Positions 8,447-59,665 of a stretch of 64,000 nt of DNA are shown piece after piece. The stretch covers positions 1,736,001-1,800,000 of the forward strand of contig NC_089390.1 in the NCBI RefSeq assembly GCF_003171515.1, given 5' to 3'. The position numbers and the translations under genes were made by a program. The DNA is from Pyrenophora tritici-repentis. Its lineage: Eukaryota; Ascomycota; Dothideomycetes; Pleosporales; Pleosporaceae. How positions within the stretch are numbered: position 1 is the first letter of the stretch; the number at the start of each line of letters is the position of its first letter. Below the pieces are notes generated by a model. It made no database searches. It worked only from the letters and a program-made list of their open reading frames with translations, and was not told where the DNA came from.

Positions 8447-10319
8447 ACGTACCTCACGGGCGAGTGGGCCACACGGGCGAGTGGGCCACTCCGCTAAGAC
8501 CCCACCAAAACATACTGTTACCTACAGTACTTTCACAATGAGCCAACAACAAAACAATCTACCAGCTTTAAAAGAGGCTCGATTACAGCTTGCTCTCAAG
8601 GCTATCGAACGCGACGCGACGCTGTCGCAGAGACGCGCTGCAGCTATCTACAACGTATCTCGAGTAACTCTTGGGCGCCGACGCGCTGGAATACCTCTTC
8701 GGAGCGATTGTACGCCTAACTCAATGAACCTCCTTAAGACAGAGGAGGATGTAATTGTCCAGCATATCCTTGACCTCGACGCGCGAGGATTTCCGCCCCG
8801 ACTTGCTGCTGTGCAGGATATGGCTAATTCTTTGTTGGCTGAGCGCCACCGCGACCCTGTTGGTCAGAACTGGGCTGCAACCTTCGTCAAACGTCGCCCT
8901 GAGCTTAAGGTCAAATTCAATCGCAAGTATGACTACAAGCGAGCCCTCTGTGAGGATCCTGAGGTTATACAAGGCTGGTTCCGACTTGTGGAGAACACAA
9001 AGGCCAAGTACGGTATCCTTGATGAGGACACCCACAACTTTGACGAGTCTGGCTTCATGATGGGCATGATATCAACTGGAGCAGTAGTCACAGGCTCTGA
9101 GCGTCGAGGACGACCAAAGAGCGTTCAGCAGGGCAATCGCGAGTGGGCTACAGTGATCCAGGGTATCAACGCGACTGGGTGGGCAATCCCACCTTTTATC
9201 ATCTTCAAAGGCAAGAACCACCTCTCTGCCTGGTACAAGGAAGATAACCTACCTCGCGACTGGGTTATTGCAGTCTCTGAGAACGGCTGGACAACAAACA
9301 AGCTTGGTCTAGAGTGGTTAAAGCACTTTGACGCTCACACAAAGAAGAGGACTGTAGGAAACTATCGTCTGCTTATTATCGACGGCCACGAGAGCCACGA
9401 CTCGCTCGATTTCCAGCAGTACTGCAAGGATCACAACATTATTACTCTCTGCATGCCTCCTCACTCGTCGCACCTACTACAGCCTCTTGATGTGGGGTGT
9501 TTCTCGCCTTTGAAGACAGCGTATGGCCGCCAAGCCGAGGATCTAATGCGCAACAAGATCACCCATATCACTAAACTAGAGTTCCTACCGTGCTTTAAAG
9601 GCGCTTTTGACGCTGCGATTACAAAGGCCAATATACAAGGAAGCTTTCGAGGCGCTGGCTTAGTCCCATTTAATCCAGAGGCTGTGATATCGACGCTTGA
9701 CGTGCGGCTGCGCACTCCACTGCTACCTACCGTCGAGGACGGTCCCTGGCAGTCGCAAACTCCAAGCAATACCCTAGAACTTGGGTCGCAATCAAAGCTG
9801 ATTCAAGAGAGGATTCGAAGACATGTAGATAGCTCACCTACGTATATGGTTGAGGCGATCAAAAGCCTGTCAAAAGGTGCAGAGATGATAGCGCATTCTC
9901 TGGTGTTAATGACCAAGCGCAACGCTGAGCTCCAAGCCGCCAACGAGGCCTCAAGTAAGCGTAGATCATATAAAAGGAAGCGCTTACAGCAGCAAGGGAC
10001 CTTAACAATTGATGAGGGCGTGCGACTGACGACTCTTAAGGAGTTTGGGGCATGTAGTGATAGGAAGAAGGCGAAGAAGAGAGTGCGCGTTGAGGCAGGC
10101 GAGCCTAGCCAACGACGCTGTGGACGCTGCGGCGAGGCAGGACATAATATGCGCACATGTAGGCAAGAAGCAGCGATAGATTCTGAGTAGAATAGCCTAT
10201 TACGATTTCTATTTACTATCTTTGACGGTGCTATATAGTCGTGTACAGTCGTGGTTTTAATGGGGTCTTAGCGCAGGTGGCCCACTCGCCCGTGTGGCCC
10301 ACTCGCCCGTTAGGTACGT
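8447..10319 (+). mobile_element. Pogo/Fot1-like (Tc1-mariner superfamily) DNA transposon
   Basis: A 1,873-bp element with imperfect terminal inverted repeats of 58 bp (8447-8504) and 59 bp (10261-10319), flanked by a duplicated TA (8445-8446 and 10320-10321). Each TIR contains a 17-bp direct repeat, cgggcgagtgggccaca, nearly twice in tandem. The intact 3' LTR at 15306-15508 acts as an empty site: the sequence there runs straight through actaTAcacttt with a single TA. One uninterrupted transposase gene fills the element, so it looks autonomous. It inserted after the Copia element because it lies inside one of its LTRs. Confidence 0.95.
8538..10190 (+). CDS. Pogo/Fot1-like transposase (DDE_1 family)
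   Basis: Cuts and pastes the element 8447-10319. The first ATG (MSQQQNNLPALKEA) gives 550 residues; the frame stays open upstream into the TIR but without ATG. Domain order: a psq-type helix-turn-helix at residues ~15-52 (ATLSQRRAAAIYNVSRVTL), a CENP-B/Tc5-type DNA-binding domain at ~60-135, then the DDE_1 catalytic core. The catalytic acidic residues fit D169 (NFDESGF), D282 (LLIIDGHESH) and D318 (QPLDVGCF), a DD35D arrangement of the pogo/Fot1 type. A basic stretch (KRRSYKRKRL) comes later, and the protein ends in a CCHC zinc knuckle (CGRCGEAGHNMRTC) near residue 530. There is no stop or frameshift, and all three catalytic residues are present. Confidence 0.95.
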   Translation: MSQQQNNLPALKEARLQLALKAIERDATLSQRRAAAIYNVSRVTLGRRRAGIPLRSDCTPNSMNLLKTEEDVIVQHILDLDARGFPPRLAAVQDMANSLLAERHRDPVGQNWAATFVKRRPELKVKFNRKYDYKRALCEDPEVIQGWFRLVENTKAKYGILDEDTHNFDESGFMMGMISTGAVVTGSERRGRPKSVQQGNREWATVIQGINATGWAIPPFIIFKGKNHLSAWYKEDNLPRDWVIAVSENGWTTNKLGLEWLKHFDAHTKKRTVGNYRLLIIDGHESHDSLDFQQYCKDHNIITLCMPPHSSHLLQPLDVGCFSPLKTAYGRQAEDLMRNKITHITKLEFLPCFKGAFDAAITKANIQGSFRGAGLVPFNPEAVISTLDVRLRTPLLPTVEDGPWQSQTPSNTLELGSQSKLIQERIRRHVDSSPTYMVEAIKSLSKGAEMIAHSLVLMTKRNAELQAANEASSKRRSYKRKRLQQQGTLTIDEGVRLTTLKEFGACSDRKKAKKRVRVEAGEPSQRRCGRCGEAGHNMRTCRQEAAIDSE

Positions 10320-10374: not shown

Positions 10375-12253
10375 CTGATCAGTGGTTGATATGACCACAG
10401 GTCGGCAAGACATCTGTGTACAGAGGGCCCATCAGCATTGCGTCTGTGTATTATTATTATATTATTATATTTCCATTAGAGTCCTGTATCAGTCGGTGAC
10501 TATGTAGGACTTTGGCTAAGCCGTTCTATGTATGTTGTTCAATATGGAGTTTCTATAGGTCTTGTACAATTTGGAGGATAGTTGCGTAGTCCAATTTCCG
10601 AGCTAGTCTTCCATTGGCGCGGGTGCTAAAGAGCAGTGTGGTGAACAGAAAGAGATGTAACAGCGAGCTCTTTGCGAAAAGAAATATTGTTTGTAGTTTT
10701 ATACAGTGTCTGTCTGTTGTTTTGTGTAGGCGTCTGTATATAGGGATCTACAAGAGAGAGAATAGATCTATACAGCTATTGCCTGGTCGATGTTTTGCTC
10801 GTGCGTGTGCTAGTGAAAGCAGGTGCTGGAGCGGTTCGGTATATGGGGTCGGTATATCGAGTCGGTTTAGGGCGTTCGGTAGAGAGGGTATTTGGTGTAG
10901 GCGTCTGTATATAGGGATCTACAAGACAGAATAGATCTATACAGCTATTACCTAGTCGATGTTTTGGGCGTTTTGGTGTAGGCGTCTGTATACAGGAATC
11001 TATTATAACCTAACAATAATAGACCTATACAGCTATTGCCTAGTCGATGTTTTGCTCGTGCGTGTGCTAGTGAAAGCAGGTGCTAGAGCGGTTCGGTATA
11101 TGGGGTCGGTATATCGAGTCGGTTTAGGGCGTTCGGTGGAGAGGGTATTTGGTGTAGGCGTCTGTATATAGGATCTACAAGAGAGAGAATAGATCTATAC
11201 ATCTAGTGCCTGGTCGGTGTTTTGCTCGTGCGTGTGCTAGTGAAAGCAGGTGCTAGAGCGGTTCGGTATATGGGGTCGGTATATCGAGTCGGTTTAGGTC
11301 GTTCGGTGGAGAGGGCTTTTGGTGTAGGCGTCTGTATATAGGGATCTACAAGAGAGATAATAGATCTATACATCTAGTGCCTGGTCGGTGTTTTGCTCGT
11401 GCGTGTGCTAGTGAAAGCAGGTGCTAGAGCGGTTCGGTATATGGGGTCGGTATATCGAGTCGGTTTAGGTCGTTCGGTGGAGAGGGCTTTTGGTGTAGGC
11501 GTCTGTATATAGGGATCTACAAGAGAGATAATAGATCTATACATCTAGTGCCTGGTCGGTGTTTTGCTCGTGAGTGTGCTGGTGACAGCAGGTGCTGGAG
11601 CGGTTCGGTATATGGGGTCGGTATATCGAGTTGGTTTAGGGCGTTCGGGTATAGGTAGCATCTAGATATATAGGCCTATTACTTTGCAGCAATAGAGATA
11701 TATACCTAAGGAAGAGCCGTTGCTCTGTCGGTTTCGTAGAGGGTGCCTTCGATCGAACATCTAAAATCAGTTGGCGCACGGGCCATTTGCAGAGATTTCT
11801 CTCAACTAAGGCCAGGTAACAACTCTGTCAAAGTTGCAGCGGCCAGCGCGCCCGCCACAACGCCTGCACGCAAAAGCAGACGTTGGAAACTGATTCTAGG
11901 AAGGCATTTCAATGGAATTGAGATGAAAAAAGGGTAATCCAGGACCTTTTTGTCATCTCGAAAAGTTGGTGTTCGATGATTGCGTCTGTGTAGCCTAGGT
12001 AAAGAAGCGACTCTTAGTACGACCTTGTATCGTATTAAGCAGTGCGAAGAACAGATCCGCCCACGAGCGTTCGTTTCGGCTGACGGAGTCTGAAAGAGAT
12101 CCAGAACTAGGGATCTGCGTCAACTACGCACCAAAACCCGACAAAATCACCGGCGAGCAACCCGCCACAGTCAACCCCGCGACGAGCGACCTACGGGCAA
12201 TCTACAAGCGACCCACAGGCAACCCCGCGACTCACAAGCAACCCACCGGAATC
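10375..12253 (+). other. Long untranslated leader of the Copia element
   Basis: This 1.9-kb stretch lies between the 5' LTR and the Gag start. It contains the tandem array at 10727-11650 and a repetitive segment around 12,150-12,245 (gcaaccc, gcgac words) just before ATG 12254. No frame here looks like protein. Such a leader may hold the packaging signal, but nothing shows that directly. Confidence 0.6.
10727..11650 (+). repeat. Tandem array of ~171-bp units in the Copia leader
   Basis: Units begin with taggcgtctgtata at 10727, 10898, 10979, 11155, 11325 and 11496, so spacing is about 171, 81, 176, 170 and 171 bp. The third unit (10898-10978) is a short version lacking the middle. Each full unit carries a partly palindromic part around atagatctatac, then tgctcgtgcgtgtgctag, then ggttcggtatatggggtcgg. 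Copies differ by only a few bases, so the array is young or homogenised. Confidence 0.9.
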
Positions 12254-15145
12254 ATGCCTACATGCATTACTACCCGGCAATGGTACCCAAAGGTGTACGC
12301 GGACGAGTACACCAATACCCAACTCGACATTGCAACCGATGCTATTATCCCTGGTCAGATAAGCACTATTGCTATCGACTGGATGATACAGGCCGAAGAG
12401 AACGGAGACTTTGACATCATGCTTATTCAAGACTTCCAAGAGACATTTGCAGGATGGTCTCTCAATCATTTCAATGCAATGGACATGCGAGTCCGTACAG
12501 CAGTCAAGAACATACTCCGCGACCGAGGTGTCTACATCGAGAAGAACAGCCGCAACACCATCGCACAACAGCTAGTCAATCTCCTTAGCCTTACACGCTC
12601 TCCCGACTGGCCCATTGACGAGCTCAACGTTATGCGACTCAACCCAGACTTCAAATGCCGACAGATAGCAGAAGAGGCACAACACGCTAGAACAACTCAA
12701 CAAAGCAGCAACCCGCCAACTCAAAGCGCCAGTATAAACTATGCGCCATCTCCTGCTCAGGCAAACGTAACAGCCCTCACCAACCTCGCAAAGGTATACA
12801 GTGAGGAGGAGAAGTTCAGTGGCGACAAGTATGACGTCCTCGACAACAAGATAGTCATCTTTAAAGACCATTGCGAAAAGGTTGGCATTACGACACCAGC
12901 ACAGTACAAACTTGCAGTCTCTACTATGCTTAGAGGCAAGGCCTCAGCATACTACTACAACTACATTGCTCCACTCAACCTAGACTACGACAGCATTATC
13001 AAGAAACTAGGGGAGTACTTTCACACGAGCGAGAACTACCAAATGTTCTTAAGTGAGTGGCGCACCATTATGCTGAAAGACGTCATCGCCAACAACCCCG
13101 ACAAGACACTCACCCAGTGTCTCGACATAGTCATCGACAAGCTCCAGCTGCTGCACCAGGCAATGACTCAACAGAATGGACCAAGCGAGCTCGCTCTTAC
13201 AAGCCAACTTATTGCTGCCTGTCAAGGCGTCGAAGCATGTAGCGCAGTCCTTATCCGCCCAGCTTCAACCTTTGAAGCCGTTGCCTCAGAACTCCGCAAC
13301 GCTGTCGGCAACTGGACGCGCTGCCATCCGCGCTCACAGTTCAACTGCGAGGAGTCCGATCCGAGCGAAGACGCGTTCTACACAAACCGCCGATACAACC
13401 GCAACGATAGCGGACAACGCGACAAACCGCGCAACTATAGCGCACAAGGCCAAGGCGAAGGATCCCGCAACTACAACCGCGGAGGATCCCGCTTCCAACG
13501 CAGCTTACCCCGATCGCAGTACAACGATGATACACAGCGCCGCAATAACAGGAAGTGCTACGTCTGTAGCAAGCCAGGCTGCTGGTCAACTCGTCACTCT
13601 AGAGAAGAGCGAAAGGAAGCGCAACAACGTTTCCGGACGTACGTGCAGACCCGCAACGTCGATATAGACTACGAAGCTTTCCTTGCCCAGTTTGAGGGCA
13701 TTGACCTTAATGACGACGACGATAACGGCGGCACGGACGAAGAACTCGACGCGTTCTTCAACAACGACCAGTTTGATACAAAGCACCAGTTTCTCACTGC
13801 TACCTGCGGTGCAGTTGATGGAGGAACAATGGTACGCAACCTCAACAACGCCGCCGCTCTACACGCGATCACGAAGATCGACCCATACGCCGGCAACGAC
13901 ATTGCCAAAGAGGCAAGCCACCTCTTCACACTCGATCACCGGTACGGGCGCGAGCAGTTCCAAGGCATCATGCCAGACACCGGCGCGGCCGGAGTGTCTA
14001 CAGCAGGCAAGCAACAGGTTACAGCGTTACACCGCATCCAACCGTTATGGATTGACAAGTCAACTGCTGGCCGACACCGGATCCGATTTGGGGATAACCC
14101 GGAGTGTGTTTCTATCGGCGACGTCAACGTCCAGACACCCGTTGGAGTGATTAGGTTCGCTGTAATGCCTACTAACACACCGTTCTTACTCTGTCTTGAT
14201 GACATGGACCGCCATGGCATCTACTTCAACAACGTCGACAATACGCTAGTTCATCAGTCCAAGGAGTACCCAATTGTCCGCAAGTGGGGGCATCCATGGC
14301 TTCTTCTCAACAAGCAGGAGACTGCCACCCACTATCTCACCGAAGGAGAACTCCAGCAACTCCACCGACGTTTTGGGCATCCAGCCGCCGCACGCCTCTA
14401 CAAAGTCCTAGTAAAGGCAGGCCACGACGACATTGACAAGACGCTAATTGATGAGATTAACAAGTTCTGTCATCAGTGCCAGATAACTGCTAAAGCACCA
14501 GGCCGATTCCGCTTTACTCTACGCGATGACAACCTCGACTTCAACTCCCGCGTCATCGTCGACATTATGTACATTGACAGTAAACCAGTCCTCCACGCCG
14601 TTGACGAAGCAACTGCTTTTCAAGCCGCCCGCTTTCTTATAGACATAAAAGCAAGCACAACATGGGACACGCTGCGCGCTATGTGGATTGACATGATTAT
14701 GGACCGACTGTCTTTCCCTAAGGTCTCTATTGTCGCATGCACGGATTCACGATCCTTGTACGACTGTCTCGTCAAACTCGGCACTACTAAGGAGAAACGT
14801 CTCATGATAGACATCATGGCATTGCGCGAGGCATACGAGCGCAACGATCTCATGGATATCCGCTGGATTGACGGCAGAGACAACCCAGCAGATGCGATGA
14901 CAAAGGCAGCGAGCAACTCTGCTTTAGAGCATCTCATTGACACCAACGAGCTCGAACTTCGTGTACAGGGATGGGTGAATCGCGACACCACAGGCATCGA
15001 GCCTACGAACAAGCCAGGCACCAAGCCTACGAACAAGACAGGCACCGAGCCTACAGACAAGACAGGCACCGAGCCTACAAACAAGACAGGCACCGAGCCT
15101 ACGAGCGATGGCACCGAGCCCACGATTGATTGTGGTGAGAACTGA
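12254..15145 (+). CDS. Copia Gag-protease-truncated integrase/RNase H fusion polyprotein
   Basis: A 963-residue open frame in one Copia-type polyprotein. Gag occupies about residues 1-430, with a Cys-rich nucleic-acid-binding motif near 435 (CYVCSKPGCWSTRH). The aspartic protease site is MPDTGAAG near 574. The integrase zinc domain has LHRRFGH near 704 and CHQC near 739, and the integrase core begins at VDIMYID near 769. At about residue 815 the frame jumps directly to the end of Copia RNase H (ACTDSRSLYDCL, KRLMIDIMALR, DNPADAMTK). The rest of the integrase core and the whole reverse transcriptase, including any YVDD box, are missing, yet the frame is kept. The C terminus has imperfect 8-residue repeats (TGTEPTNK) from about residue 914. 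Gag and protease look intact, so the protein could still build particles. Confidence 0.9.
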   Translation: MPTCITTRQWYPKVYADEYTNTQLDIATDAIIPGQISTIAIDWMIQAEENGDFDIMLIQDFQETFAGWSLNHFNAMDMRVRTAVKNILRDRGVYIEKNSRNTIAQQLVNLLSLTRSPDWPIDELNVMRLNPDFKCRQIAEEAQHARTTQQSSNPPTQSASINYAPSPAQANVTALTNLAKVYSEEEKFSGDKYDVLDNKIVIFKDHCEKVGITTPAQYKLAVSTMLRGKASAYYYNYIAPLNLDYDSIIKKLGEYFHTSENYQMFLSEWRTIMLKDVIANNPDKTLTQCLDIVIDKLQLLHQAMTQQNGPSELALTSQLIAACQGVEACSAVLIRPASTFEAVASELRNAVGNWTRCHPRSQFNCEESDPSEDAFYTNRRYNRNDSGQRDKPRNYSAQGQGEGSRNYNRGGSRFQRSLPRSQYNDDTQRRNNRKCYVCSKPGCWSTRHSREERKEAQQRFRTYVQTRNVDIDYEAFLAQFEGIDLNDDDDNGGTDEELDAFFNNDQFDTKHQFLTATCGAVDGGTMVRNLNNAAALHAITKIDPYAGNDIAKEASHLFTLDHRYGREQFQGIMPDTGAAGVSTAGKQQVTALHRIQPLWIDKSTAGRHRIRFGDNPECVSIGDVNVQTPVGVIRFAVMPTNTPFLLCLDDMDRHGIYFNNVDNTLVHQSKEYPIVRKWGHPWLLLNKQETATHYLTEGELQQLHRRFGHPAAARLYKVLVKAGHDDIDKTLIDEINKFCHQCQITAKAPGRFRFTLRDDNLDFNSRVIVDIMYIDSKPVLHAVDEATAFQAARFLIDIKASTTWDTLRAMWIDMIMDRLSFPKVSIVACTDSRSLYDCLVKLGTTKEKRLMIDIMALREAYERNDLMDIRWIDGRDNPADAMTKAASNSALEHLIDTNELELRVQGWVNRDTTGIEPTNKPGTKPTNKTGTEPTDKTGTEPTNKTGTEPTSDGTEPTIDCGEN

Positions 15146-18415: not shown

Positions 18416-19595
18416 TCACAGTTGCTCTGAAATACCTTTCCAGTTGGACAGGAACCAAAATTCGGAGCCTGCATATTCTAGAAGCTTACAGTAATATTTG
18501 AAAACTGTTCTGACATGGGGATGTCCCCTTTCCTTTAAAGTTTCTATAAATTCTTTCTGAAGGCTGATGGGCCATACCATGATGGCGCGCAGGGCTGGAT
18601 GAGAAGTCGTTTCCAGGGAGTATTGCAGAGAGACTCGTAGTTGATCGATGGCTTGAATAATGGCAAGGCCAATCGGCGATGAGTCCTCGGAGACCGAACA
18701 GCCTAGAGCCTGTATTTCGACCAGGAAAGCAGACAACAGCGAGGGTGGCTTTGGCAACTCTGCCACAGGCGTCATGATAAGTGCGAAAGGTCCGCTTAGT
18801 AAGATGTGGATGACATCCTTCATCACGAAATGTACTCCGCGCACAACCTGGAACGTCTCCACGAGCACGTCCAGATTGTATGCACGTGCATCGGCAAAGG
18901 CGTTCATCACAGTCAACATGGCCGAAGCGAAGACCGCGTGGCAATTCAATGGTCCAATATCCGTGATCGCTTTGTTCAGGCTTGTAAGTGCAACGCTTTG
19001 ATGCGCAGAGGCAGCCAAGCGAAAATGGGTCGCCCTGGATGGATTGCTGTAGACGAGATGATTTGACGAGAAAGCCAATATGCTGTGTAGGAGAAAATCG
19101 AATTTAAACCCCTCTTGGGGGACTGCAAATTGCCAAATCTGTTTGATTTCGTCGGTGCCTGGCAGACTTTGGTGCGCGTGTGAGGTATAATGGTGCATCA
19201 ACTCCATATCCCGTAGCCAGTCAGCTGTTGGCACTCCAGCTGGAGCCTCAGCTGGCACGGTAGGTAAAACATGCTCCTGCACTGGTCGGAGATGCGAAGG
19301 ATCCGGTGAATATCCGTCCGTCTGGGTTGACAGGCTTCCCGGACTACCTGATGCAGATAGCTGTATGTTGTGCGGGGACGCAGTCTCCGAACCGCTTGCA
19401 CTTTGGGTATCAGCACCAAGAAGACTACATTCGGCTCTATATCGCGTGCAAGCGCCACATGGCCTGCCTTCGTCACACTAGATGTGTGAGTGTTAGAAAG
19501 ACGGTGAAGGCGTGGCGGAAGCTAGATACCTTGACGCGTCGCGCTTTGCATTGTAAACAGCCATTACGACTTTTTCTCGAACCAAGTCTGGGCAT
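18416..19595 (-). CDS. Zn2Cys6 fungal transcription factor (Upc2-like architecture)
   Basis: Two exons, 19595-19530 and 19477-18416, joined across a 52-nt intron (19529-19478) that splits the zinc cluster, give 375 residues. Residues 13-39 form a perfect binuclear cluster: CLQCKARRVK then CDEGRPCGACTRYRAEC. A Ser/Pro-rich linker follows. The C-terminal regulatory domain starts with DWLRDMELMHHYTSHAHQSL, typical of the fungal transcription-factor domain found in Upc2-type and related regulators. The N-terminal MPRLGSRKSRNG is the usual basic lead-in. It is a sequence-specific nuclear DNA-binding protein with unknown target. It may control the nearby metabolic genes at 21.8-31.3 kb, but only proximity suggests that. 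The frame is intact. Confidence 0.9.
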
Positions 19596-20450: not shown

Positions 20451-21701
20451 ATGCAGTCACGGGCTTTCCCTCTGGTTGCAGAGCTCAACACCAATACTAG
20501 CACAGATTCTCAACGACTTCATCCTCAAATAACACTTGCGATCCCATTCCGCTTGGACTCGTTCCGAAAGCCGCATTCGAGCGGGAACCGTGATATGTCC
20601 GACTCCAACCCTGCCCTTGGATTTTCGAAAAACCACAAGTTCATCCGCAGGATTCAGTCAGGGCCACAGGGCTACGTAGAGCAATGGAAGCACGTTCCTA
20701 CGGCGAAAATGATTGCAGTAAAGGTCATTCGACACACCCAGCCTACACCTAATGAGGTTGCTATCCATCGAGAACCACCACCGCATGAGTCGATTATCGG
20801 CTACTTGGGCTACTACGAACAGCTACCAAAGCCAGATGTGTCCTCACTTCTACTTGAGTTTTGTGAATTCGGCGACTTCTACGACTTCGGTAAACGGGCT
20901 CGGCGGGTGGCTCGGAGGGGTGAACACCCTAGTTTCTCTGAAGCTTTCATGTGGCCAGTATACCGCCAGCTAATGAGTGCTCTCGCCTTTCTGCATCAAG
21001 GCATCGATGCACAGAACCCACAAGGTCGTGACGGCTGGAGGCCAATAGTACACCAAGACATCAAGGTCGAGAACGTGTTCGTCAAGCGCTTAGGCACCAT
21101 ACCCGACTGGTCGGAAATTAAACTGAAGATTGGAGATTTCGGCATGTCTACTTACTATGATCCTGCCAATCTCAATCCCCACAGCTACATTGGCACAAGC
21201 ACAAACTGGTCGCCGGAAATCTCCTGGGAGACCAAGCGCTTCACACCTGCGAGTGATGTATGGGCAGCTGCTAGCATCATCCATGGACTGGCTCATAACT
21301 TTGGGCCAAAAGTTGCTTCCGAGCTTATCAAGAAGAAGTGGTTCCTCCAAAATGATGAACTGCCCTTCCCAGCGACATGGCCGCCAAATCTACAAATCAG
21401 CTATTGGTCGTCGCAAGCACCGCATAGAGTCATTCCGATCAACGTTGACCCTAAAGAGCCTGTCCCTGTTTTGTCCGATTACGGAGTGGGATATGACATA
21501 CGGGCACTGAGCGCTCGCGAGCATTGGCCGAGCCCAAAGTACTCTGACGCACTGAACGATTGCATGATGGCGGGCCTCAAGATTTCGCCAGATGAGCGTG
21601 CAGAGTCGGGGAAATTACTCTTCCAGATTGAGACAGCACAGGCTAAGTTCCTTTTCAAGGATCTATGTGTGGCGCATGACCGTGAGACTGCGTCGGACTA
21701 G
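20451..21701 (+). CDS. Protein kinase-like protein
   Basis: A single open frame of 416 residues from ATG 20451, or 368 from ATG 20595 (MSDSNPALGFSKNHKF). The second start looks better because the first 48 residues are unstructured and a TATA-like patch sits just before 20451. Kinase landmarks: IAVKVIRH (VAIK-like lysine), LLLEFCEFGDFYDF (hinge), IVHQDIKVENVFV (catalytic loop with HQD in place of HRD), KIGDFGMS (DFG) and SDVWAAASIIHGLA (helix F). The Gly-rich loop is weak and the segment after DFG is short. The catalytic Asp, Asn and DFG are present, so activity is possible. It resembles the divergent Ser/Thr kinases common in Pezizomycotina. The substrate is unknown. Confidence 0.8.
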   Translation: MQSRAFPLVAELNTNTSTDSQRLHPQITLAIPFRLDSFRKPHSSGNRDMSDSNPALGFSKNHKFIRRIQSGPQGYVEQWKHVPTAKMIAVKVIRHTQPTPNEVAIHREPPPHESIIGYLGYYEQLPKPDVSSLLLEFCEFGDFYDFGKRARRVARRGEHPSFSEAFMWPVYRQLMSALAFLHQGIDAQNPQGRDGWRPIVHQDIKVENVFVKRLGTIPDWSEIKLKIGDFGMSTYYDPANLNPHSYIGTSTNWSPEISWETKRFTPASDVWAAASIIHGLAHNFGPKVASELIKKKWFLQNDELPFPATWPPNLQISYWSSQAPHRVIPINVDPKEPVPVLSDYGVGYDIRALSAREHWPSPKYSDALNDCMMAGLKISPDERAESGKLLFQIETAQAKFLFKDLCVAHDRETASD

Positions 21702-21864: not shown

Positions 21865-22695
21865 TCACATATTGGAGTAATCATAATCGAATCGCGACAG
21901 CGCTCTACTTTGTATCGCCATGTCAATGATCTCTTCTACAAGTCGGTTTACATCCTTTGTCTTTATCGGAACCCGGTGCCCACCTTCCCACTCCTGAACT
22001 CTGACATACCGCTTGTCAAAATACTCATGAAGTAGCCGACGATGTAACTGAATATTGGGATCCTTCAAACCGTGGTAATGAATGGTAGGTATCCTAATCA
22101 GATCTAGCATGGGAAACTGTAGCTTCTCCTCGACCGCCGTAGTCGTAACAGCTGAAGCAGGAACAAGGCCATGTGGAACGGGCATATCGGGTATTAACGA
22201 CACCAGCGGTCCCCGTCCGGCGAGAAGTACTGCGAAGCGAAACTGAGGCCAATCGGTATCGATGCCAAACACGTCGCGGGAGAATTGTTGCATGTACAGC
22301 AAACTCGCGCATATCTTCGCTCCCTGACTGAACCCTAGTAGTCCTACCCACTCGCCCGTCACGCCCTTCTCGTCATCCTCTGCTATGGCACCTATAAGAG
22401 AACACTGTATACGCTCGATAGCGCTGGTCGCATCTCGATGTGGATCTTCGGGGCTCCAGTGGAGCCAGGCTTTGAATGGACCGCAGCTCTTGTATACTGA
22501 GATGACATCTGGACCGGGCTTGGAAGGGAATGGCGCTTCCGCGTAGCAAAGTCTGAAATATGGCAACAGACTACGCTCGAGGACACGGCATTGGGCGCGG
22601 AAGATCCTGGCGTTGGTTCCACCACCGTGTAGACAGAGGATTCTCGGCTTGTGTAGAGTTGGGTCGGCGCTGGGGGTTGGGGTATGGTAATTCAT
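21865..22695 (-). CDS. FSH-family serine hydrolase (FSH1/OVCA2-like)
   Basis: Single-exon 276-residue alpha/beta hydrolase. The start reads PRILCLHGGGTNARIF, the family's oxyanion strand. LGFSQGAK near residue 120 is the nucleophile elbow (GxSxG). LKDPN and GGHRVP near residues 220-245 supply the Asp and His of the triad. The overall size and the pattern with RAQCRVLE and YAEAPFPSKPGPD fit the fungal serine-hydrolase family used both in general ester cleavage and, in polyketide clusters, as a product-releasing or trimming esterase. Neighbours (acyltransferase, monooxygenase, efflux pump) make a secondary-metabolite role plausible, but no substrate can be read from the sequence. Confidence 0.88.
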   Translation of the reverse strand: MNYHTPTPSADPTLHKPRILCLHGGGTNARIFRAQCRVLERSLLPYFRLCYAEAPFPSKPGPDVISVYKSCGPFKAWLHWSPEDPHRDATSAIERIQCSLIGAIAEDDEKGVTGEWVGLLGFSQGAKICASLLYMQQFSRDVFGIDTDWPQFRFAVLLAGRGPLVSLIPDMPVPHGLVPASAVTTTAVEEKLQFPMLDLIRIPTIHYHGLKDPNIQLHRRLLHEYFDKRYVRVQEWEGGHRVPIKTKDVNRLVEEIIDMAIQSRALSRFDYDYSNM

Positions 22696-24119
22696 CGTCT
22701 ATACAGTACTTAAAGTAGTATAGTATTGGGATGAAGAGTAGATGGGAGAGCGCGTTGATGAGATTGCTTGGTATGCTATCGGCGCTTCAAGTTAAGACAT
22801 AGACAAGCCATGATAAGCATCAGCCCATTCTCCTAATCGAGTTAACTATCTCTTAGCCCTGTAGGTAACCTCAGCTTGTCGTGAAACTCCGAGAGATACT
22901 CCATGTATTTTTGGTTAGGCTGCCTGAAACTCTGGTGTGGTCGTGTCAGTGGGGGCGGGAAACTACATAGGTAAACAAGTCACCAAACTGTAGGTTACTT
23001 TTACTATCTGATGCTACTTTAAGCTATCTAGAATCTTTTGACTTCAATGTTAGTTATATGGAGGTTGGTTTCGTGTGTTTGTAATAGTCAAGAGAGTCGC
23101 AAAGGCTGAAGACGGCCACTAAGGCACACGTCGCTAAGTGAGTATCAGTGATGACAGCTTGCTAAATCAGCGTTACTACATGCATGTAACCTTATATATA
23201 GGGGGGGGGAATGGGCTTCGTGGTATGGGGACAACTCCAGTATGGAGTAAAGTGAAGTACGTGACCGTGACGTATCTTAACAGACTTGTGACAACAGTAG
23301 CGTGGCGAGATCATGAAAAAACTGTATGTGTTACAATGTTATTAACTTCGACTATACTAGGCCGTGGAGTACTGTATTGTGAAGTCATTATTATAGGAAC
23401 AACACATTCGGCCGTAGATGATTCTAGAGGGTTGCCCAACTCCCACAGAGACGGCAACGCCGACGGCTAACTAGTGTGGTGTAGTAGCTTGTCACGTGTT
23501 CGGCGTTAGGTAATCGGCGCTAGGGTTGAGTATTTTAGGGCGACTCCGCGAGGAGAAGCTCGACATCATCGGATCATCTTATCGTACACCATTCTTAATA
23601 CTACCGTTTATTGTTCGGATACCTTCTTGTTCCCTACTCTCTACCGATTGCGGGTCGGCAGCCTCTCTTCTGACTATTGAGGCTATCCCTCTACCACACT
23701 AGTCAGCCTCCCCAAGCTACTGCACGACACCGTGATTACTTGCAGAGATAACAGAAACATTACCTAGGATAGATAAGTTCGACGCCTGAAATGTACCGAG
23801 AGATCGCGAATAGCCTGGAGATCGGGGTATATTGAAGAAAGGTAGCCATTGGAGTCTAGAACTGAGAAATGGAAAGTGTAGAACAAATGAATGTCTCAGG
23901 TATCACCGGTCTCAGCCAGCCTGGCACTAATACTCCGAAATTTTCCATGGGCTCCACGAACGTTCTTTCTCAGGGATGATTACCCTACCTTCTGGTATCT
24001 TGTATGTACATAAAGAAGCACGATTACATAAGTGTTCGTGTCTAGTGTGACTTTATTCGGACTATTATTTCTTTTCACGCACAATCCAAACGACCTTGAA
24101 TACTAGCCTAGCCCTACGG
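22696..24119. other. Gene-poor 1.4-kb spacer, possibly old repeat DNA
   Basis: No supported gene. It contains a G-run at about 23,200 and a segment at ~23,488-23,756 that starts tgtcacgtg and ends gagataaca. That segment resembles a solo LTR in outline, but I found no second copy and no target duplication. Short frames are unconvincing. Confidence 0.35.
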
Positions 24120-25490
24120 TTATGAATTCTCTTTAATGATAGCAGTGCATCTACTCCACTCTAGGTCCTCACACAAGCCCTTGATCTCTATCTCCGGAAG
24201 ACAAAGCAAAAGCAATAGATCGCCATTCGCCTCCTGAGGATAGATATAAAATACGCCAGGAAGTGGTGTCAGCTTGGGCCTGCGACCTAGATCCAGCTTT
24301 CCTAAGATACCAAAATCGAACCCATTGACTTTAGCGTTCATCATAGATGAGTGGCCAATGTCTGTGATTGGATTGGCACCGCCTGCGTACATGAGCCGTG
24401 ACTTGTCCTGCACTGAGTCGACAAAGGTAGCGTAAGATCGGGCCGAAAAGTCGTTGTTTGTGTCGTCAAGGTCCTTGCGCAGGCGCGTTGCCACCGTAGC
24501 AAGTGGCAAATCTACGAGCTCTTGGAAGGTGAGGCGCGTGGCAGATTGATACACCATCTGTCCAAGATAGCCCGGCGAAACGCCGACAACAGGTCGGATA
24601 TCGATGGTGCGACCGAACTTGGAAACGCAAGTTGGATCGGGGCCAGTCTTGATCCGGACAGCGGCTATGCTCTTCCAGAATAGCGCACACAAAGCGTCGT
24701 TGGGAGAGATGAACGGAACGTCTGGGTCAAAGCCTACTGAGTCTTCGGCTAGCTTCTTGACTTCTGCCAGCTTGTCCTTGAAGAAGCGGAAATAGGTCCA
24801 TTGAGCTGGAGCGCGGGGTTTGATAGGTTCCGGCGCTGGATCGGGCTTTAGAAGATGACTGTGATCAAGCATTGGCTCGAAGGGGTCAAGAAGCCGTATG
24901 ACACTTGCGGGATCTTGATTGGCAGCTTCGATGATGTCTTCAGGGAAAGGCTCGCCACGGAGAGCGGCAGACAGAAGGGTGATGATAGTGAACAAGCCCG
25001 TCCCGTCAACCATGTTATGCTGGTTGCTGTACGTGAGAAGGAACCCGCCCTTCACGAAAGTAACTTGCAGCATAGCCGGAGGCGCCGGCCCGATCTTGGC
25101 GGTGTTGTAACCCAGAGGGAATCCTGGGTAAGGACAGATGAGGTCCCCGTCAAGCATCGAGAAAGGCGCCTCAGCCGCAAGCATCTCTGCGTACGAGGGA
25201 AGAAGATCAGAGCAATCTCTGACCTTGAGGAGGCCGTGTGGCGGGACATCTTCGGGCCATGGTGCCATGCGGAGGATACCTGAACTACTATCTTCACCGG
25301 GTACATGGATGACTTGACCCGTGAGCCAAGGGATAGCGGCTAGAATTTTAGATGTAGCGTCTCTAAGGGCAGAGATGACTATCTCTTGAGTGAGGCCTTC
25401 CCTCATAGGGAAAAGGGAGACGCCATGGTTGTAGGTCGTCAGTTGGGGAAATTGACCAAGGACGTCAGGGTTGCGTTCAGGGTAAGGCAT
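24120..25490 (-). CDS. BAHD/Tri101-like acyltransferase
   Basis: A single-exon gene of 456 residues starting MPYPERNPDVLGQFPQ; an upstream in-frame ATG at 25595 would add 35 non-conserved residues. The catalytic motif HNMVDG (HxxxD) lies near residue 175 in LTYSNQHNMVDGTGLF. The second family motif near the C terminus is NGFDFG, a variant of DFGWG. SALRDATSKILAAIPWLTGQ near the start matches the fungal branch related to trichothecene 3-O-acetyltransferase, and the family transfers acyl groups from CoA to alcohols or amines of small molecules. It is divergent from the monooxygenase-transporter fusion gene across 585 bp, so the two are likely co-regulated. The acyl donor and acceptor are unknown. 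Confidence 0.88.
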   Translation of the reverse strand: MPYPERNPDVLGQFPQLTTYNHGVSLFPMREGLTQEIVISALRDATSKILAAIPWLTGQVIHVPGEDSSSGILRMAPWPEDVPPHGLLKVRDCSDLLPSYAEMLAAEAPFSMLDGDLICPYPGFPLGYNTAKIGPAPPAMLQVTFVKGGFLLTYSNQHNMVDGTGLFTIITLLSAALRGEPFPEDIIEAANQDPASVIRLLDPFEPMLDHSHLLKPDPAPEPIKPRAPAQWTYFRFFKDKLAEVKKLAEDSVGFDPDVPFISPNDALCALFWKSIAAVRIKTGPDPTCVSKFGRTIDIRPVVGVSPGYLGQMVYQSATRLTFQELVDLPLATVATRLRKDLDDTNNDFSARSYATFVDSVQDKSRLMYAGGANPITDIGHSSMMNAKVNGFDFGILGKLDLGRRPKLTPLPGVFYIYPQEANGDLLLLLCLPEIEIKGLCEDLEWSRCTAIIKENS

Positions 25491-26075
25491 TTTGAACAAA
25501 AAGTGGGTAGTTCTGGAGTGGTTGAAATAAACCCTGTATGGTGATGATAGTACTTGGGTACGGGAAGGCAGGTATGATAACGAAAAGATGTGCAATTCCT
25601 ACCCACCCAGAAGGAACAAGTAAGATTTATCGCGTTATGACTCAACTCTCTCAGTACCTATAGTTACTTATTTAAGATTGTACATGTTTCGTTGTTTCTC
25701 CCTGAGCCTTGCGCGCCGCGTCGTGTTGTCGTTGAGATATTCCGAGCTCCGTGGTAAGTTAATCGGCCCATCCAGGGTCCACCGCTACCACTTCCAGAAC
25801 ATGAGTTCATGAGCTAGGCCAGTTTCTCCGAAAATACAAAATGCAATCACTTCAGACGGAGTAACCACTGCATCCGCATCGTACCGCTCAAAATACAGAG
25901 TAGTCTCACTGTCGTACAGGATGGTAAACCCCGCTCTCAATGTCTTACATGATGGCAGACGCCCCAGCCGATCACATTCACCTCCTCCCATCACGCTTTT
26001 CACCAAAGCAACCTTCAGCCCAGTACTAGTGCCCATTCCAATAGGTATCTAAGGGGGCAATCCAACTTGGTTACT
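25491..26075. promoter_or_regulatory. Divergent promoter between acyltransferase and monooxygenase-transporter gene
   Basis: This 585-bp gap also contains an 83-residue open frame on the - strand (25785-26036) with no recognised motif, which I do not call a gene. The two flanking metabolic genes start outward from here, so shared regulation is likely. No specific operator was identified. Confidence 0.45.
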
Positions 26076-29000
26076 ATGTTCGACGACGCTCCTTTCGAAG
26101 TCGCCATTGTGGGTGGCGGCATTGCCGGTCTGACACTCGCAATCGGCCTCCTACGCCGTAACATCCCTTTCAAGATTTACGAGCGCGCACAGGGTTTCCG
26201 TGAGATCGGTGCTGGGATCGGATTTACTGCAAATGCTGAACGTGCTATGCTCGCACTTGACCCGCGGATCCACGCTGGATTCCGGAACCTCGCTTTTCGC
26301 AATAACGAGGATGATTTTTACTATGTCGATGGGTATCACTGGGACCCTAATAATCCAGATCATGAGGAGGTCATCTTCAAGATGTACCTTGACGAGAGAG
26401 GATTTGAGGGTTGTCGCAGACCAGACTTTCTGGAGGAATTGGTACGGCATATTCCACCACAGTTTGTTGCATTTGGGAAGGATTTGGTTTCGGTGAGGGA
26501 TGATGCAGGGGATAGCAAATGCACTCTATCATTTCACGATGGTTCCGCAGCAAAAGCTGATCTCGGTGAGTTCCATACAACAAAATCCTAGACAACCATA
26601 TGAATGAACATGGCTAACAAATCACCAGTAATTGGGTGCGACGGGATTCGCTCCAAACTTCGACGTGTCATGTTCGGAGAAGGCCACCCAGCTGCCTACC
26701 CTCAATACACTTACAAGTACGCCATTCGAGGTCTTATCCCCATGGACCAAGCCAAAGCCGCAGTCGGAGAATTCCAAACTTTCAATCGCATGATGCACTT
26801 CGGCCCTGGTGCCCATGCCCTCACCTTCCCTGTCGCCGGCGGTAACATCCTCAACGTTGTTGCTTTTGTCACCGACCCAGACCAGTGGAAAGCTCCAGAT
26901 GGCAAGCTCACCGCACCAGCGTCGAAGGCTGAAGCAGCAAAGGCTTTTTCCGCGTTCAGCCCCGTTGTGCGCAAGATCATAAATCTACTCCCTGATACAA
27001 TCGATAAATGGGCTGTGTTCGACACTGGAATCCATCCCCCTCCTTCCTACGTGTCTGGCCGTCTATGTCTTGCCGGTGATGCCGCACATGCTGCTGCACC
27101 TCACCACGGAGCAGGTGCTGGCTGCGGTATCGAAGACACACTAGTCCTGGCCTGTCTCCTGGAAGCCGTTGCACGATCTAATCCAGCCGACCGATCAACA
27201 GCCATACGATCCGCCCTACAGGTCTACAATAACATACGATACGAGCGAACACAGTGGCTCGTCCAGAGCAGTCGCATGATAGGCGATGTGTACGAGTTCA
27301 TGCATCCCGAGTGCGGCCAAGATCACCAAAAGATCGCCCACGAGATCTACACACGCTCACACAAGATATGGGACTACGAAGTCGATGCCATGGCGCAAGA
27401 TGCACTCCACCAGTTCGGAAGCGCAGTAAAGAACACCCCATCGCTCACATCGGTCGGCAAGGAAGCAGACAAGAGTTCCACTGAAGTATCGCTAGTTGGC
27501 GAAAAGCCAGTTGAGCATATATACATGTCTGGTTTTGCGCTCGCTGCGGTCATGGTCACGTTTACGCTCGTGTACTTTCTGCTCATGTTGGATATTTCGA
27601 TTATGTCTACTGCAAGTAGCCGTTATTAACGTACGATATGTATTTTGACAAAATGATCAGGCTATCCCGTACATCACTGACGAATTCAACTCGCTCCTCA
27701 ATGTTGGTTGGTATGGCAGTGCCTACCAGCTCGTCTGTGCGACATTGCAACCCCTCACTGGCACCATGTACGCCCGCTTGAACTCAAAGGTTCTGTTTCT
27801 TACCTTCTTCACCATCTTCATGGGCGGCTCTGCCATTTGTGGTGCAGCGCAAAGTTCAGTGATGCTGATCTTGGGGAGAGCGGTAGCTGGTTTTGGTGCT
27901 GCTGGCATTATGAATGGCGGCTTCACTATGCTCAACTCTTGCGTCTCACCACAGCAGCGACCCGGGATGCTTGGCATTATGATGACTTTTGGCAATCTTG
28001 GTGCAGCAGCTGGACCGCTCATCGGAGGAGCGATCACAGAATACGCCACATGGCGATGGTGTACGTATCTTACCTTCTTCCTTTCGCATTGTAAAGATGC
28101 TGATGACTCCAAGGCTTCTACATCAACCTCCCCGTCAGCGCCATCGTCTTTCCCTTCTTAGTCTGGCTCAGAATCCCTGAGCATATACCCAAGCCTCACT
28201 GGAAAGCCGTTCTCCTAAACGCACGTCATGAATTCAACCTCATCGGCTTTTCCGTCTTCGCTCCCGCTGCCATCATGCTGTGGCTCGTACTGGACTTTGG
28301 CGGCAATCGCTGGGAATGGGACAGCTCTACCACTATCGGTCTTCTCTGTGGCTCTGTCGCCACGTTCGCTCTCTTCACTGCATGGAACAATCATCAAGGC
28401 GACAAGGCGATGCTCCCATTTTCCACTCTGAAGCTACGCGTCGTGTGGTCTAGCTGCTTGACAATTCTCATGCTAGCTGGAACACTGCTTGTTCTCACGT
28501 ATTACCTTCCATTGTGCTTCCAGGGTGTGAGGGGAGACACTCCGTTCCTGAGTGGTGTGCACTTCTTGCCTACGGCGGTGACGCAGGTTGTGCTTACTCT
28601 GATCAGTGGCCGGTTGAGTAAGTCGTCGTCTCCAACCTTTCTTTTCGGTCTCAATACTAATAGTCCTGCAGTTCAGGTGCTTGGATACTACCTTCCTTTT
28701 CTCCTCGTCGGTGGTGTCTTGGGCACCATCGGCTCAGGTCTCATGACGCTCATCTCGCCATCGCTCAGCCTGGCCAGGATCATCGGATTCCAGGTCCTAG
28801 CCGGAGTGGGCAGAGGTATTGCATTTCCTATGGTTAGTCGATTTCCCCACTCTCTCGTCTCATCGTACCCAACTAACCAAACAACACAGCCCATGATCGC
28901 TCTCGAGAACTCCCTCCCACCCGCTCGCATCCCCACCGCAATATCCACCTTCGTCTTCTGCCAGAACCTCGGCAGCGCTCTCTTCACCATCATCGCGCAA

Positions 29001-29264
29001 ACCGTCTTTGCCAACTCGTTGAAATCGAAACTCAGCGAGGACGCTCCTACAATTGACGTAGGGGCTATCATCCGCGCTGGCTCTACTAAGATGCGGACAT
29101 TGGTCACCAGCGAACAACTACCGCAGTTGCTCGAGGCGTACAGCTCGAGTATCCGGAGAACGTTTATCCTGGGCACTGCGACGAGCATAGTCAGTCTTTT
29201 AGTGTCGTATTTTATGGGATGGAAAGATGTCAGGCACAAGAGGGCGCCTGTGGCAAAGACATAG
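26076..29264 (+). CDS. FAD-dependent monooxygenase fused to an MFS (DHA2-type) transporter
   Basis: Six exons: 26076-26565, 26629-27611, 27661-28060, 28114-28617, 28672-28832 and 28890-29264, giving 970 residues. Residues 1-~420 are a salicylate-hydroxylase-like flavoprotein: VAIVGGGIAGLT (FAD, residues 10-20), GAGIGF, VIGCDGIRS and LAGDAAHAAAPHHGAGAG (~313). With no stop, the same exon runs through a ~35-residue polar linker into the first membrane helix (YMSGFALAAVMVTFTLVYFL, ~460). The DHA2 signatures follow: DISIMSTAIPYITDEF, LGRAVAGFGAAG, motif C GAAAGPLIGG and WRWCFYINLP, with about 14 helices expected. The third exon is entered through a GC-AG intron (27612-27660). The flavoprotein would oxidise an aromatic or polyketide-like compound and the fused pump could export the product. 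The separate-genes alternative has no stop codon, promoter or start between the halves to support it. Confidence 0.87.
27612..27660 (+). other. GC-AG intron in the transporter part
   Basis: Donor GCAAGT and acceptor ATCAG, 49 nt. Only this splice joins MSTA to IPYITDEF in frame. Using the nearby GT (27616) breaks the conserved helix-1 loop. GCAAGT is the usual sequence of the rare GC donor class. Confidence 0.85.
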
Positions 29265-29857: not shown

Positions 29858-31335
29858 ATGCGACATGAACGCGCAACCCTCCCGACGCCAAAGTCGACCG
29901 ATTCCTTCTGGCATAGCGAGCCCGATGAGTTTCTTCTCGGCCATCGTACGACGGATGATCTGCCCTCTGAGGCCGACGTTGTTATCGTGGGGTCTGGTAT
30001 AACAGGCACGAGTGCAGCGAGATTTCTTGCTGAGGATGAGAGGGCTAATGGAAAGAGCATCGTGGTGCTTGAGGCTAGAGAAGCATGTTGGGGTGCGACG
30101 GGAAGGGTGAGTTGGCCCTGTTGATGTAGGTCAAGGAAGCCTGCTGATACTGCTGCCATCAGAACGGCGGACATTGCCAACCTCTCCTCTTCGATCGGAG
30201 CAGCGAAGTAGCCGAGTTCGAACTAAAGAACGTCGCCGCGGTACGATCATACATTCAAGAAAATGACGTACCCTGCGAGTGGCGCGATGTGACCGGCTGT
30301 CGCACATTCTGGACTGAAGAAGCGTTGAAAGAGACTATGAAACAAGTAAACCATCTCCGGGAGGTAGCACCCGAGATAGCCCGCCACGTCACTGTTATCC
30401 AAGACAAGCAAGACTTCAAGAAACACCGCGTTGCGTCTGATTGTGTTGGGGCGACTCTCAGTGAGGGAGCTGCAAGTCTATGGCCCTACAAGCTCGTCGC
30501 CTTTATCCTGAAGAAGCTGGTGAAATCCGGCCGAATTAACCTGCAGACTACAACGCCCGTCACTGAGATCACATCTGCCAACGGCACGCACACACTACAT
30601 ACAGCTCGCGGTATCATAAGCAGTAAGACCGTCATCCTTGCAACCAACGGTTATACATCAGCCATCCTGCCCCACTTTGCCGACCTCATCGTTCCCTGCC
30701 GTGGTGAAATGTCTGCTCTCTACCCCCCGAAAGCTTCAACCATCCTGCCCAACTCCTACGGTATGGTCGCAGCTCTAGGCCAGCCCGCCAACAATGATGA
30801 TTACCTCATCCAACGCCCCTACGAAGGCGTTCCCAATCCCGCCGGCCATCTCATGTTTGGCGGCGGTCGCGGAGCTGGGAACTACCCTAGCATAGGTGTC
30901 TCAGACGACAGCATAATCGACGAAGGCGCCGCCGCCTATCTCCGTGGCGCCCTATTGAAAGTGCTCGAGCTAGATGGTGAGACTGAAGGGCTTCAAGAAC
31001 TCCAGGCCGCCGCACAATGGACTGGTATCATGGGGTATTCGCGCGACGACCACCCGTGGGTAGGCAAGGTGCCTGGTAAAGAAGGCTTGTGGCTCTGTGG
31101 TGGCTACACTGGTCACGGGATGCCAAACGGCACGCTTTGCGGGAAGGCTATCGTTGATATGGTGTTGGGAGAGTTAGAGGGGCGGGAGTTGAGTGCAGTT
31201 CAGACTGCCATGGTGGAGAAGGGCCATATTCCTAGTAGTTATATCTTATCCAAGGAAAGGATTGATAAAGCGAGGCAGATGCTTACTGTGCAGCAGCAGG
31301 ATGAGAGAGGGGTGCGTATGGATCCTATGGTTTGA
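29858..31335 (+). CDS. FAD-dependent oxidoreductase, DAO family
   Basis: Two exons (29858-30106, 30163-31335) with a 56-nt intron give 473 residues. The Rossmann FAD motif ADVVIVGSGITGTSAARFL lies at residues ~40-58, followed by VLEAREACWGATGR and, across the splice, NGGHCQP, the conserved flavin-contacting segment of this branch. Near the C terminus, WTGIMGYSRDDHPWVGKVPG and LWLCGGYTGHGMPNG complete the FAD domain. This is the D-amino-acid-oxidase-like fold used for oxidation of amines or amino acids, for example gamma-glutamylputrescine-type oxidases. The true substrate is unknown. It follows the monooxygenase-transporter gene in the same direction and may belong to the same metabolic set. 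The frame is intact. Confidence 0.92.
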
Positions 31336-59391: not shown

Positions 59392-59665
59392 TTTTGGGCG
59401 CCCAAGCAGTTGATATGAATTGATTTCGATATACAGGAGCGAGAGAGAAGTGGTGTAAGCCCACAAAGGTTGTCGCTCTGGTAAAAGAGAGAATGCGTAG
59501 ACAAACAAAAGTCGCGCCTACGCCAAAGTTAGTTGGCCCAAGCTCGACATAACGTACGACCTCACGCGCACTACCTAGGTACTTGGACCGTCACCCACAC
59601 CACACCAAACCCCCAGATTCACTACGGCGGCGCATCTGCCTTTACATATAATAGAATTTGCTGCC
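59392..59665. promoter_or_regulatory. Short divergent promoter, nup82 / cbc2
   Basis: A 274-bp gap between two divergent mRNA-metabolism genes, with no clear TATA box near either start. The tight head-to-head arrangement suggests shared control. Confidence 0.5.

Follow-up and report, generated by a model that had tools for sequence, protein, structure and literature searches.

A flavin monooxygenase joined to a DHA2-type transporter in a single fungal gene: a candidate for coupled oxidation and export

Introduction

In the parts of PMC11934079 that deal with sorbicillinoids, the flavin monooxygenase (FMO) SorC is described as making sorbicillinol, which stays reactive, and the major facilitator superfamily (MFS) protein SorT as being involved in carrying sorbicillinol across the membrane. 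A related set of tailoring enzymes is found in azaphilone pathways, for which the core genes are given in the relevant section of PMC8596599 as a serine hydrolase, an FMO and an O-acyltransferase together with an nrPKS and an hrPKS, the hydroxyl added by the FMO being the target of the acyltransferase. On the transporter side, the extra domains covered in the consulted part of PMC10710835 on bacterial MFS fusions are CBS, cyclic-nucleotide-binding, PAS and UspA domains, which are described there as regulatory.

During analysis of a 64,000-nucleotide stretch of the Pyrenophora tritici-repentis genome (the window; all coordinates below without a contig name are positions in it) we examined a gene in which an FMO and a DHA2-type MFS pump appeared to be encoded as one protein. 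The reading we came to prefer, and which we think somewhat probable, is that this is a single 970-residue protein combining an FMO like SorC, TropB and AfoD with a DHA2 pump, the enzyme likely dearomatising a resorcinol-like phenolic compound and the pump exporting the reactive product.

Results

Gene structure and intron 2

The gene lies at 26076-29264 on the plus strand. The first-pass annotation had read it as one stop-free frame of six exons, and splicing these exons gave a closed frame of exactly 970 residues; its further statement that an FMO with intact motifs is joined here to a DHA2-type MFS transporter agreed with both the Pfam results and the solved relatives of each half. The parts of the gene are as follows.

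26076-26565, 26629-27611, 27661-28060, 28114-28617, 28672-28832 and 28890-29264, plus strand: exons 1-6, from splicing to the closed frame
26076..27431, plus strand: FMO half, residues 1-431, in exon 1 and part of exon 2 with the intron 26566-26628 between them; PF01494 above cut-off
27432..27524, plus strand: linker, residues 432-462 (31 residues), stop-free and inside exon 2
27525..29264, plus strand: DHA2-type MFS half, residues 463-970 and the stop, in exons 2-6; PF07690 with E-value 3.3e-45
27612..27660, plus strand: intron 2, GC-AG (GCAAGT...CAG), phase 0, just 3' of the first transmembrane helix

The match of the N-terminal half to FAD_binding_3 (PF01494) had an E-value of 2.7e-16, above the cut-off, and that of the C-terminal half to MFS_1 (PF07690; 3.3e-45) extended over residues 476-878 and scored 154.9 bits against a cut-off of 33.4. 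The C-terminus of the FMO, the linker and the first helix of the pump are all carried by a single uninterrupted exon (26629-27611).

Intron 2 has a GC donor, not GT. Its GC-AG splice gives MLDISIMSTAIPYITDEF, which matches the relatives, and restores the STAIPYITDEF motif. In two public P. tritici-repentis models the first helix is shortened at this place, by 19 residues in P0001 and by 14 in P0007, and on this ground we rejected a GT donor for the intron. P0001 represents the same gene, being 100% identical outside the missing residues, and both entries are probably wrong at intron 2, the GC-AG splice having gone unused and the first transmembrane helix having been partly lost. The frame of two further fusion models, P0190 and P0191, continues as STVS at the intron 2 site, resembling a read-through into a GTAAGT-like donor, so the intron position seems to be common to the relatives and the GC donor a local change.

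Distribution of the fusion

Beyond P. tritici-repentis we found at least five full-length fused relatives of 970-988 residues, aligned over 99-100% of the query, in Pyrenophora teres (92% identity), Ascochyta lentis (62%), Polyplosphaeria fusca (61%), Curvularia kusanoi (60%) and Bipolaris zeicola (60%, representing a cluster of 31 sequences). Both precomputed domains were present in at least eight of the 79 matches (P0001-P0006, P0008 and P0009, the last two being two-domain fusions with shorter models); as the search scored the best 7,995 candidates, these counts are lower bounds. Shorter models that cross the junction came from Neofusicoccum, Macrophomina, Pleomassaria and A. clinopodiicola, with P0191; among these P0010 (Neofusicoccum), P0190 (Macrophomina) and P0191 have both the FMO and the linker and end after the first helix. 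The Diplodia model P0192 ends before the linker and has no pump, and it may be truncated or truly unfused.

Orthologues that were always two genes had been named at the outset as the finding that would count against a fusion, and the five other full-length relatives are instead annotated as single proteins. Together with the single exon across the junction and the spacing of motifs described below, these fused relatives led us to reject a merger of neighbouring genes or a missed stop. The first-pass annotation had also suspected that the fusion might be undescribed. We found no published description of an FMO-MFS fusion in the open-licence literature searched, but the architecture is already present in databases, where P0001 is named 'MFS-1 multi-domain protein'.

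A candidate for a second enzyme-MFS fusion in the genome, an 834-residue frame at C4:1095062, was rejected, being an MFS protein with a long N-terminal tail that by eye is unlike an enzyme. Separately, 'Vacuolar basic amino acid transporter 3' is the name given to three free-standing 441-residue Penicillium FMOs (P0226, P0234 and P0246), a transporter name possibly carried over from a fused FMO-MFS record.

The linker and the question of one protein or two

Across the six full-length fusions (15 pairs) mean pairwise identity was 68% for the FMO half, 70% for the MFS half and 31% for the linker, taken for this count as residues 432-463, and the pairwise identities of the two halves were closely correlated (0.93). 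Conserved halves with a variable linker are, on these alignments, what one would expect of two functional domains joined by a tether. Besides evolving fast, the linker is predicted to be disordered: in the predicted P. teres model, which is confident in both domains (mean pLDDT 89.3), pLDDT falls below 50 at residues 437-459. The pTM of this model (0.60) leaves the enzyme and the pump in no fixed mutual arrangement, so that channelling, which the first-pass annotation had suggested as a possible role beside self-protection, finds no support in the model.

Such a linker could be cut, and we asked how well the sequences fit the production of two proteins after all, whether by internal initiation, by a second transcript or by cleavage of the linker. 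Two methionines are of interest for this reading. Of the 11 rows compared across the junction, only the two from Pyrenophora species have Met 463, which directly precedes the first helix. Met 418, ~45 residues before the first helix, is common to all 11 rows. It is, however, part of the conserved C-terminal motif of the FMO, and the free-standing SorC, TropB and AfoD have it too, so its conservation needs no role as a start. Beyond Met 418 no methionine is common to the 11 rows, and a start inside the linker is thus not conserved. Spacing also argues against two proteins. From the conserved FMO C-terminal motif to the LDxSI helix motif there are 69 residues, whereas unfused FMOs continue for a median of 21 residues after the first motif (91 of 114 matched the pattern) and unfused MFS proteins have a median of 76.5 residues before the second (96 of 110 matched), which would leave little room for a 3' end and a second promoter. 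We consider the making of two proteins very improbable.

The enzyme half

The best PDB matches to the FMO half were SorC (1e-113), TropB (~1e-103) and AfoD (7e-101), with salicylate hydroxylase as the second-best group (3e-57). A Foldseek search with the P. teres model agreed: its top 11 rows consisted of SorC, TropB and AfoD only, with 42-44% identity for TropB and AfoD. Several FMO relatives bear the name salicylate hydroxylase in databases; we rejected this label here since these enzymes are outranked by SorC, TropB and AfoD in both sequence and fold. By homology, then, the FMO half belongs to the group A flavin monooxygenases, and its nearest solved relatives there are the dearomatising enzymes SorC, TropB and AfoD.

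Residues placed by alignment were consistent with this assignment. The equivalent of the substrate-binding Arg206 of TropB is R197, and arginine occupies this position in each of the 10 other fusions and in 123 of the 124 relatives. TropB position 239 corresponds to F230; it is phenylalanine in all 10 other fusions, and among the 124 relatives phenylalanine (107) was followed by tyrosine (9), cysteine (4), isoleucine (2) and valine (2). In the portion of PMC10789314 that treats this residue, F239 is said to promote S products and Y239 R products, with the reservation that the residue alone is not fully decisive, an F239 ancestor having given R products; residue 239 by itself therefore does not settle the chemistry. 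A further relative, Hfaza2D of Hypoxylon fragiforme (P0278), was 48% identical to the FMO half, and from its name we take it to be a member of an azaphilone cluster.

The pump half

Solved relatives of the MFS half by sequence were EmrB (5e-20) and EfpA, the latter being recovered by fold as well. We counted 14 membrane-like helices by eye in the predicted P. teres model, omitting a 15-residue helix at 904-918 for which a hydropathy scan of the window protein had no hydrophobic stretch. We provisionally assign this half to the DHA2 type from its Pfam match, its PDB matches and the helix count. The N-terminus of DHA2-type pumps is cytosolic, which fits a cytosolic flavoenzyme attached at that end.

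It could be argued that the pump half serves mainly to place the FMO at the membrane, the enzyme and the pump acting on unrelated compounds. A disordered, poorly conserved linker and domains without fixed contact would suit such an arrangement. Yet the pump half is conserved like the enzyme half, at the identities given above, and it keeps the glycine/proline-rich LGAAAGPLIGG, which we take to be a stretch typical of efflux antiporters, so that transport itself appears to be under selection; in addition, unfused FMO and MFS relatives share contigs, as described in the next section. We regard a purely anchoring role as quite improbable, and keep to the preferred reading in which the pump would carry the product of the enzyme.

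Origin of the fusion

A tree of each half had been proposed as a way to learn whether the fusion arose once. In rows hand-picked from the matches, the fusions formed one clade with 100/100 support in both trees, which took in 12 of the 48 FMO rows and 7 of the 47 MFS rows, and this clade was present in 100% of 200 bootstrap trees. The FMO clade includes the Diplodia model P0192, which has no pump and which we counted with the fusions because it is nested among them in the FMO tree; when it was scored as unfused in a preliminary FMO tree, two changes were needed. The MFS tree was made without P0143, P0152 and P0189 and with a stricter column filter, and a quick earlier MFS tree agrees with it.

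Among the closest unfused relatives, FMO and MFS occur as proteins of their own. Comparing by eye the 120 rows listed for each half, we noted six cases in which an unfused FMO and an unfused MFS relative had equal longest-contig values: Pleurostoma (767,613), Pleopsidium (51,285), Hypoxylon FL1284 (1,129,476), Aspergillus heterothallicus (283,581), Phlyctema (6,695,449) and Viridothelium (38,906; named for the MFS row only). The organism was identical for both halves in all five pairs in which both were named. Sharing of a contig is deduced here from these equal values, and on megabase contigs it has little meaning. Only the Pleurostoma pair is close to the fusions in both trees, the other five of the six being otherwise placed: Pleopsidium adjoins the fusions in the MFS tree and is far from them in the FMO tree, and the pairs of Hypoxylon FL1284, A. 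heterothallicus, Phlyctema and Viridothelium do not stand near the fusions in the MFS tree. From the contig sharing and tree position of the Pleurostoma pair in the main, we infer that the fusion probably arose once, from genes that were already clustered.

In the trees of both halves Ascochyta groups with Bipolaris and Curvularia, apart from Pyrenophora. This grouping runs against family-level taxonomy, and horizontal transfer, or an old duplication followed by loss, are possible explanations.

Neighbouring genes

The first-pass annotation had placed a divergent BAHD acyltransferase on one side of the fusion and a DAO oxidoreductase after it, and Pfam matches identified both. The neighbourhood is composed as follows.

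24120..25490, minus strand: BAHD-type O-acyltransferase; PF22664 and PF02458 above cut-off; divergent from the fusion and ~585 bp from its start
21865..22695, minus strand: FSH1-type serine hydrolase; PF03959, E-value 6e-30
29858..31335, plus strand: DAO-type FAD oxidoreductase; PF01266, E-value 7e-29 (second exon); an approximate by-eye model with one intron
18419..19477, minus strand: Zn2Cys6-type transcription factor frame (Fungal_trans_2); PF11951 above cut-off; Cys-rich start by eye
20451-21698, plus strand: protein kinase frame, between the transcription factor and FSH1
Downstream of the fusion, as is the DAO oxidoreductase: phosphotransferase-type (APH) frame, by Pfam

The Zn2Cys6-type factor is a possible regulator of the cluster. 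No second copy of the BAHD gene was found in the genome at an E-value of 1e-5. Annotated fusions among the FMO relatives included five to FSH1 (P0014, P0021, P0022, P0025 and P0027) and three to BAHD (P0019, P0024 and P0031), some of which may be merged gene models. The FSH1 of the window was 54-63% identical to the FMO-fused partners (54-56% for P0014, P0021, P0025 and P0027; 63% over 131 residues only), and its BAHD protein was 31-35% identical to the FMO-fused BAHD partners. As in the azaphilone tailoring set, FSH1, FMO and BAHD all fall within a short region (21,865-29,264).

We searched the genome (40.9 Mb in 41 contigs) for synthase domains. There were 54 ketosynthase matches, none within ~680 kb of the fusion and the nearest on its contig at ~684 kb and ~805 kb, and 10 SAT matches, none of them near the fusion. 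No synthase was present among the 29 Pfam-scanned frames of the window (of 61 listed), in which the longest frame had 1,332 residues. With no ketosynthase within this distance the locus is not a normal azaphilone cluster, and we rejected that description.

The missing synthase bears on the main rival to the dearomatise-and-export reading, a detoxification device in which the FMO would oxidise a phenolic originating from a competitor or from the host plant, and the pump would expel the product, with no polyketide of the fungus's own involved. The distance to any ketosynthase match suits this explanation, as does the position of salicylate hydroxylase as the second-best PDB group. Several of the genera bearing the fusion have plant-associated lifestyles, which would also agree with it. 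On the other hand, neighbours of the FSH1 and BAHD families are what one would look for in a biosynthetic tailoring set, and SorC, TropB and AfoD are far closer to the FMO half than the salicylate hydroxylases are. We judge detoxification unlikely, though a rival to be taken seriously, and continue to prefer dearomatisation followed by export.

Elsewhere in the genome, a region of ~18 kb (G000:C9:1663928-1682300) combines a ketosynthase match and a SAT domain with a free-standing FMO that is 37% identical; this is a polyketide cluster of the more ordinary type, its FMO unfused. In 30 kb at that locus we found no relatives of the window's MFS, BAHD or FSH1 genes. Other features of the window include a long transposase frame (8448-10187, plus strand; DDE_1 and HTH_Tnp_Tc5), a 4'-phosphopantetheinyl transferase frame (61849-62892, plus strand) that is ~33 kb from the fusion and probably unrelated, and two long frames of 1048 and 896 residues (11999-15142, plus strand, and 56830-59517, minus strand) without a Pfam match.

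Discussion

On the preferred reading, the FMO half would act in the cytosol on a phenolic, resorcinol-like compound, and would dearomatise it rather than simply hydroxylate it. The attached pump would work in the outward direction and its cargo would be the reactive product of the FMO half. The benefit of the flexible tether, as we picture it, would be that this product is made beside the pump that removes it, on one polypeptide. As the locus has no polyketide synthase nearby, a distant synthase or a source outside the cell would supply the substrate.

A bolder version of this reading, which we put forward tentatively and hold to be possible more than probable, would see a one-protein machine for oxidation and export, in which a membrane-tethered dearomatase beside a proton-driven pump allows no build-up of product in the cytosol. 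Such a machine would have been born once from adjacent genes of an azaphilone-type pathway and kept in Pleosporales and relatives, and in Pyrenophora, with no local polyketide synthase, its substrate would be supplied in trans or by the environment.

If these proposals hold, the fusion points to the likely class of cargo of one DHA2 pump, and it would serve as a natural template wherever an enzyme is to be linked to an exporter. We would also expect a tailoring module of this kind to escape cluster searches anchored on polyketide synthases, since none is nearby.

Comparison with known systems shows which features are shared and which are particular to this gene. EmrB and EfpA are the DHA2-type efflux pumps matched by the MFS half, and their solved chains have no enzyme domain. 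The bacterial MFS fusions resemble the present protein in having an extra domain on an MFS transporter, but those dealt with in the consulted part of PMC10710835 carry regulatory domains, whereas here the added domain is an oxidising enzyme. TropB, AfoD and AzaH are free-standing, unlike the fused FMO, in which the arginine equivalent to Arg206 is kept; at position 239 the fusion has phenylalanine like AfoD and unlike the tyrosine of TropB. No solved structure matches the FMO half better than SorC, yet in the phmmer alignment the catalytic Glu245 of SorC is opposite a valine, and valine or isoleucine is given as typical of TropB, AfoD and AzaH at this position in the section of PMC11934079 concerned. 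Azaphilone clusters, as outlined in the relevant section of PMC8596599, have a serine hydrolase, an FMO and an O-acyltransferase side by side, as found here, but at our locus no nrPKS or hrPKS is nearby and the FMO carries its own pump.

By analogy, the hand-over from SorC to SorT appears to be the closest working model for the fusion. In the introduction of PMC11934079, a dearomatising FMO is followed by an MFS exporter, the same succession that we propose, except that SorC and SorT are two separate proteins beside two polyketide synthases and here there is one protein. As separate proteins make and export the reactive metabolite in this closest model, the conserved fusion would provide a direct test of the physical coupling of synthesis and efflux.
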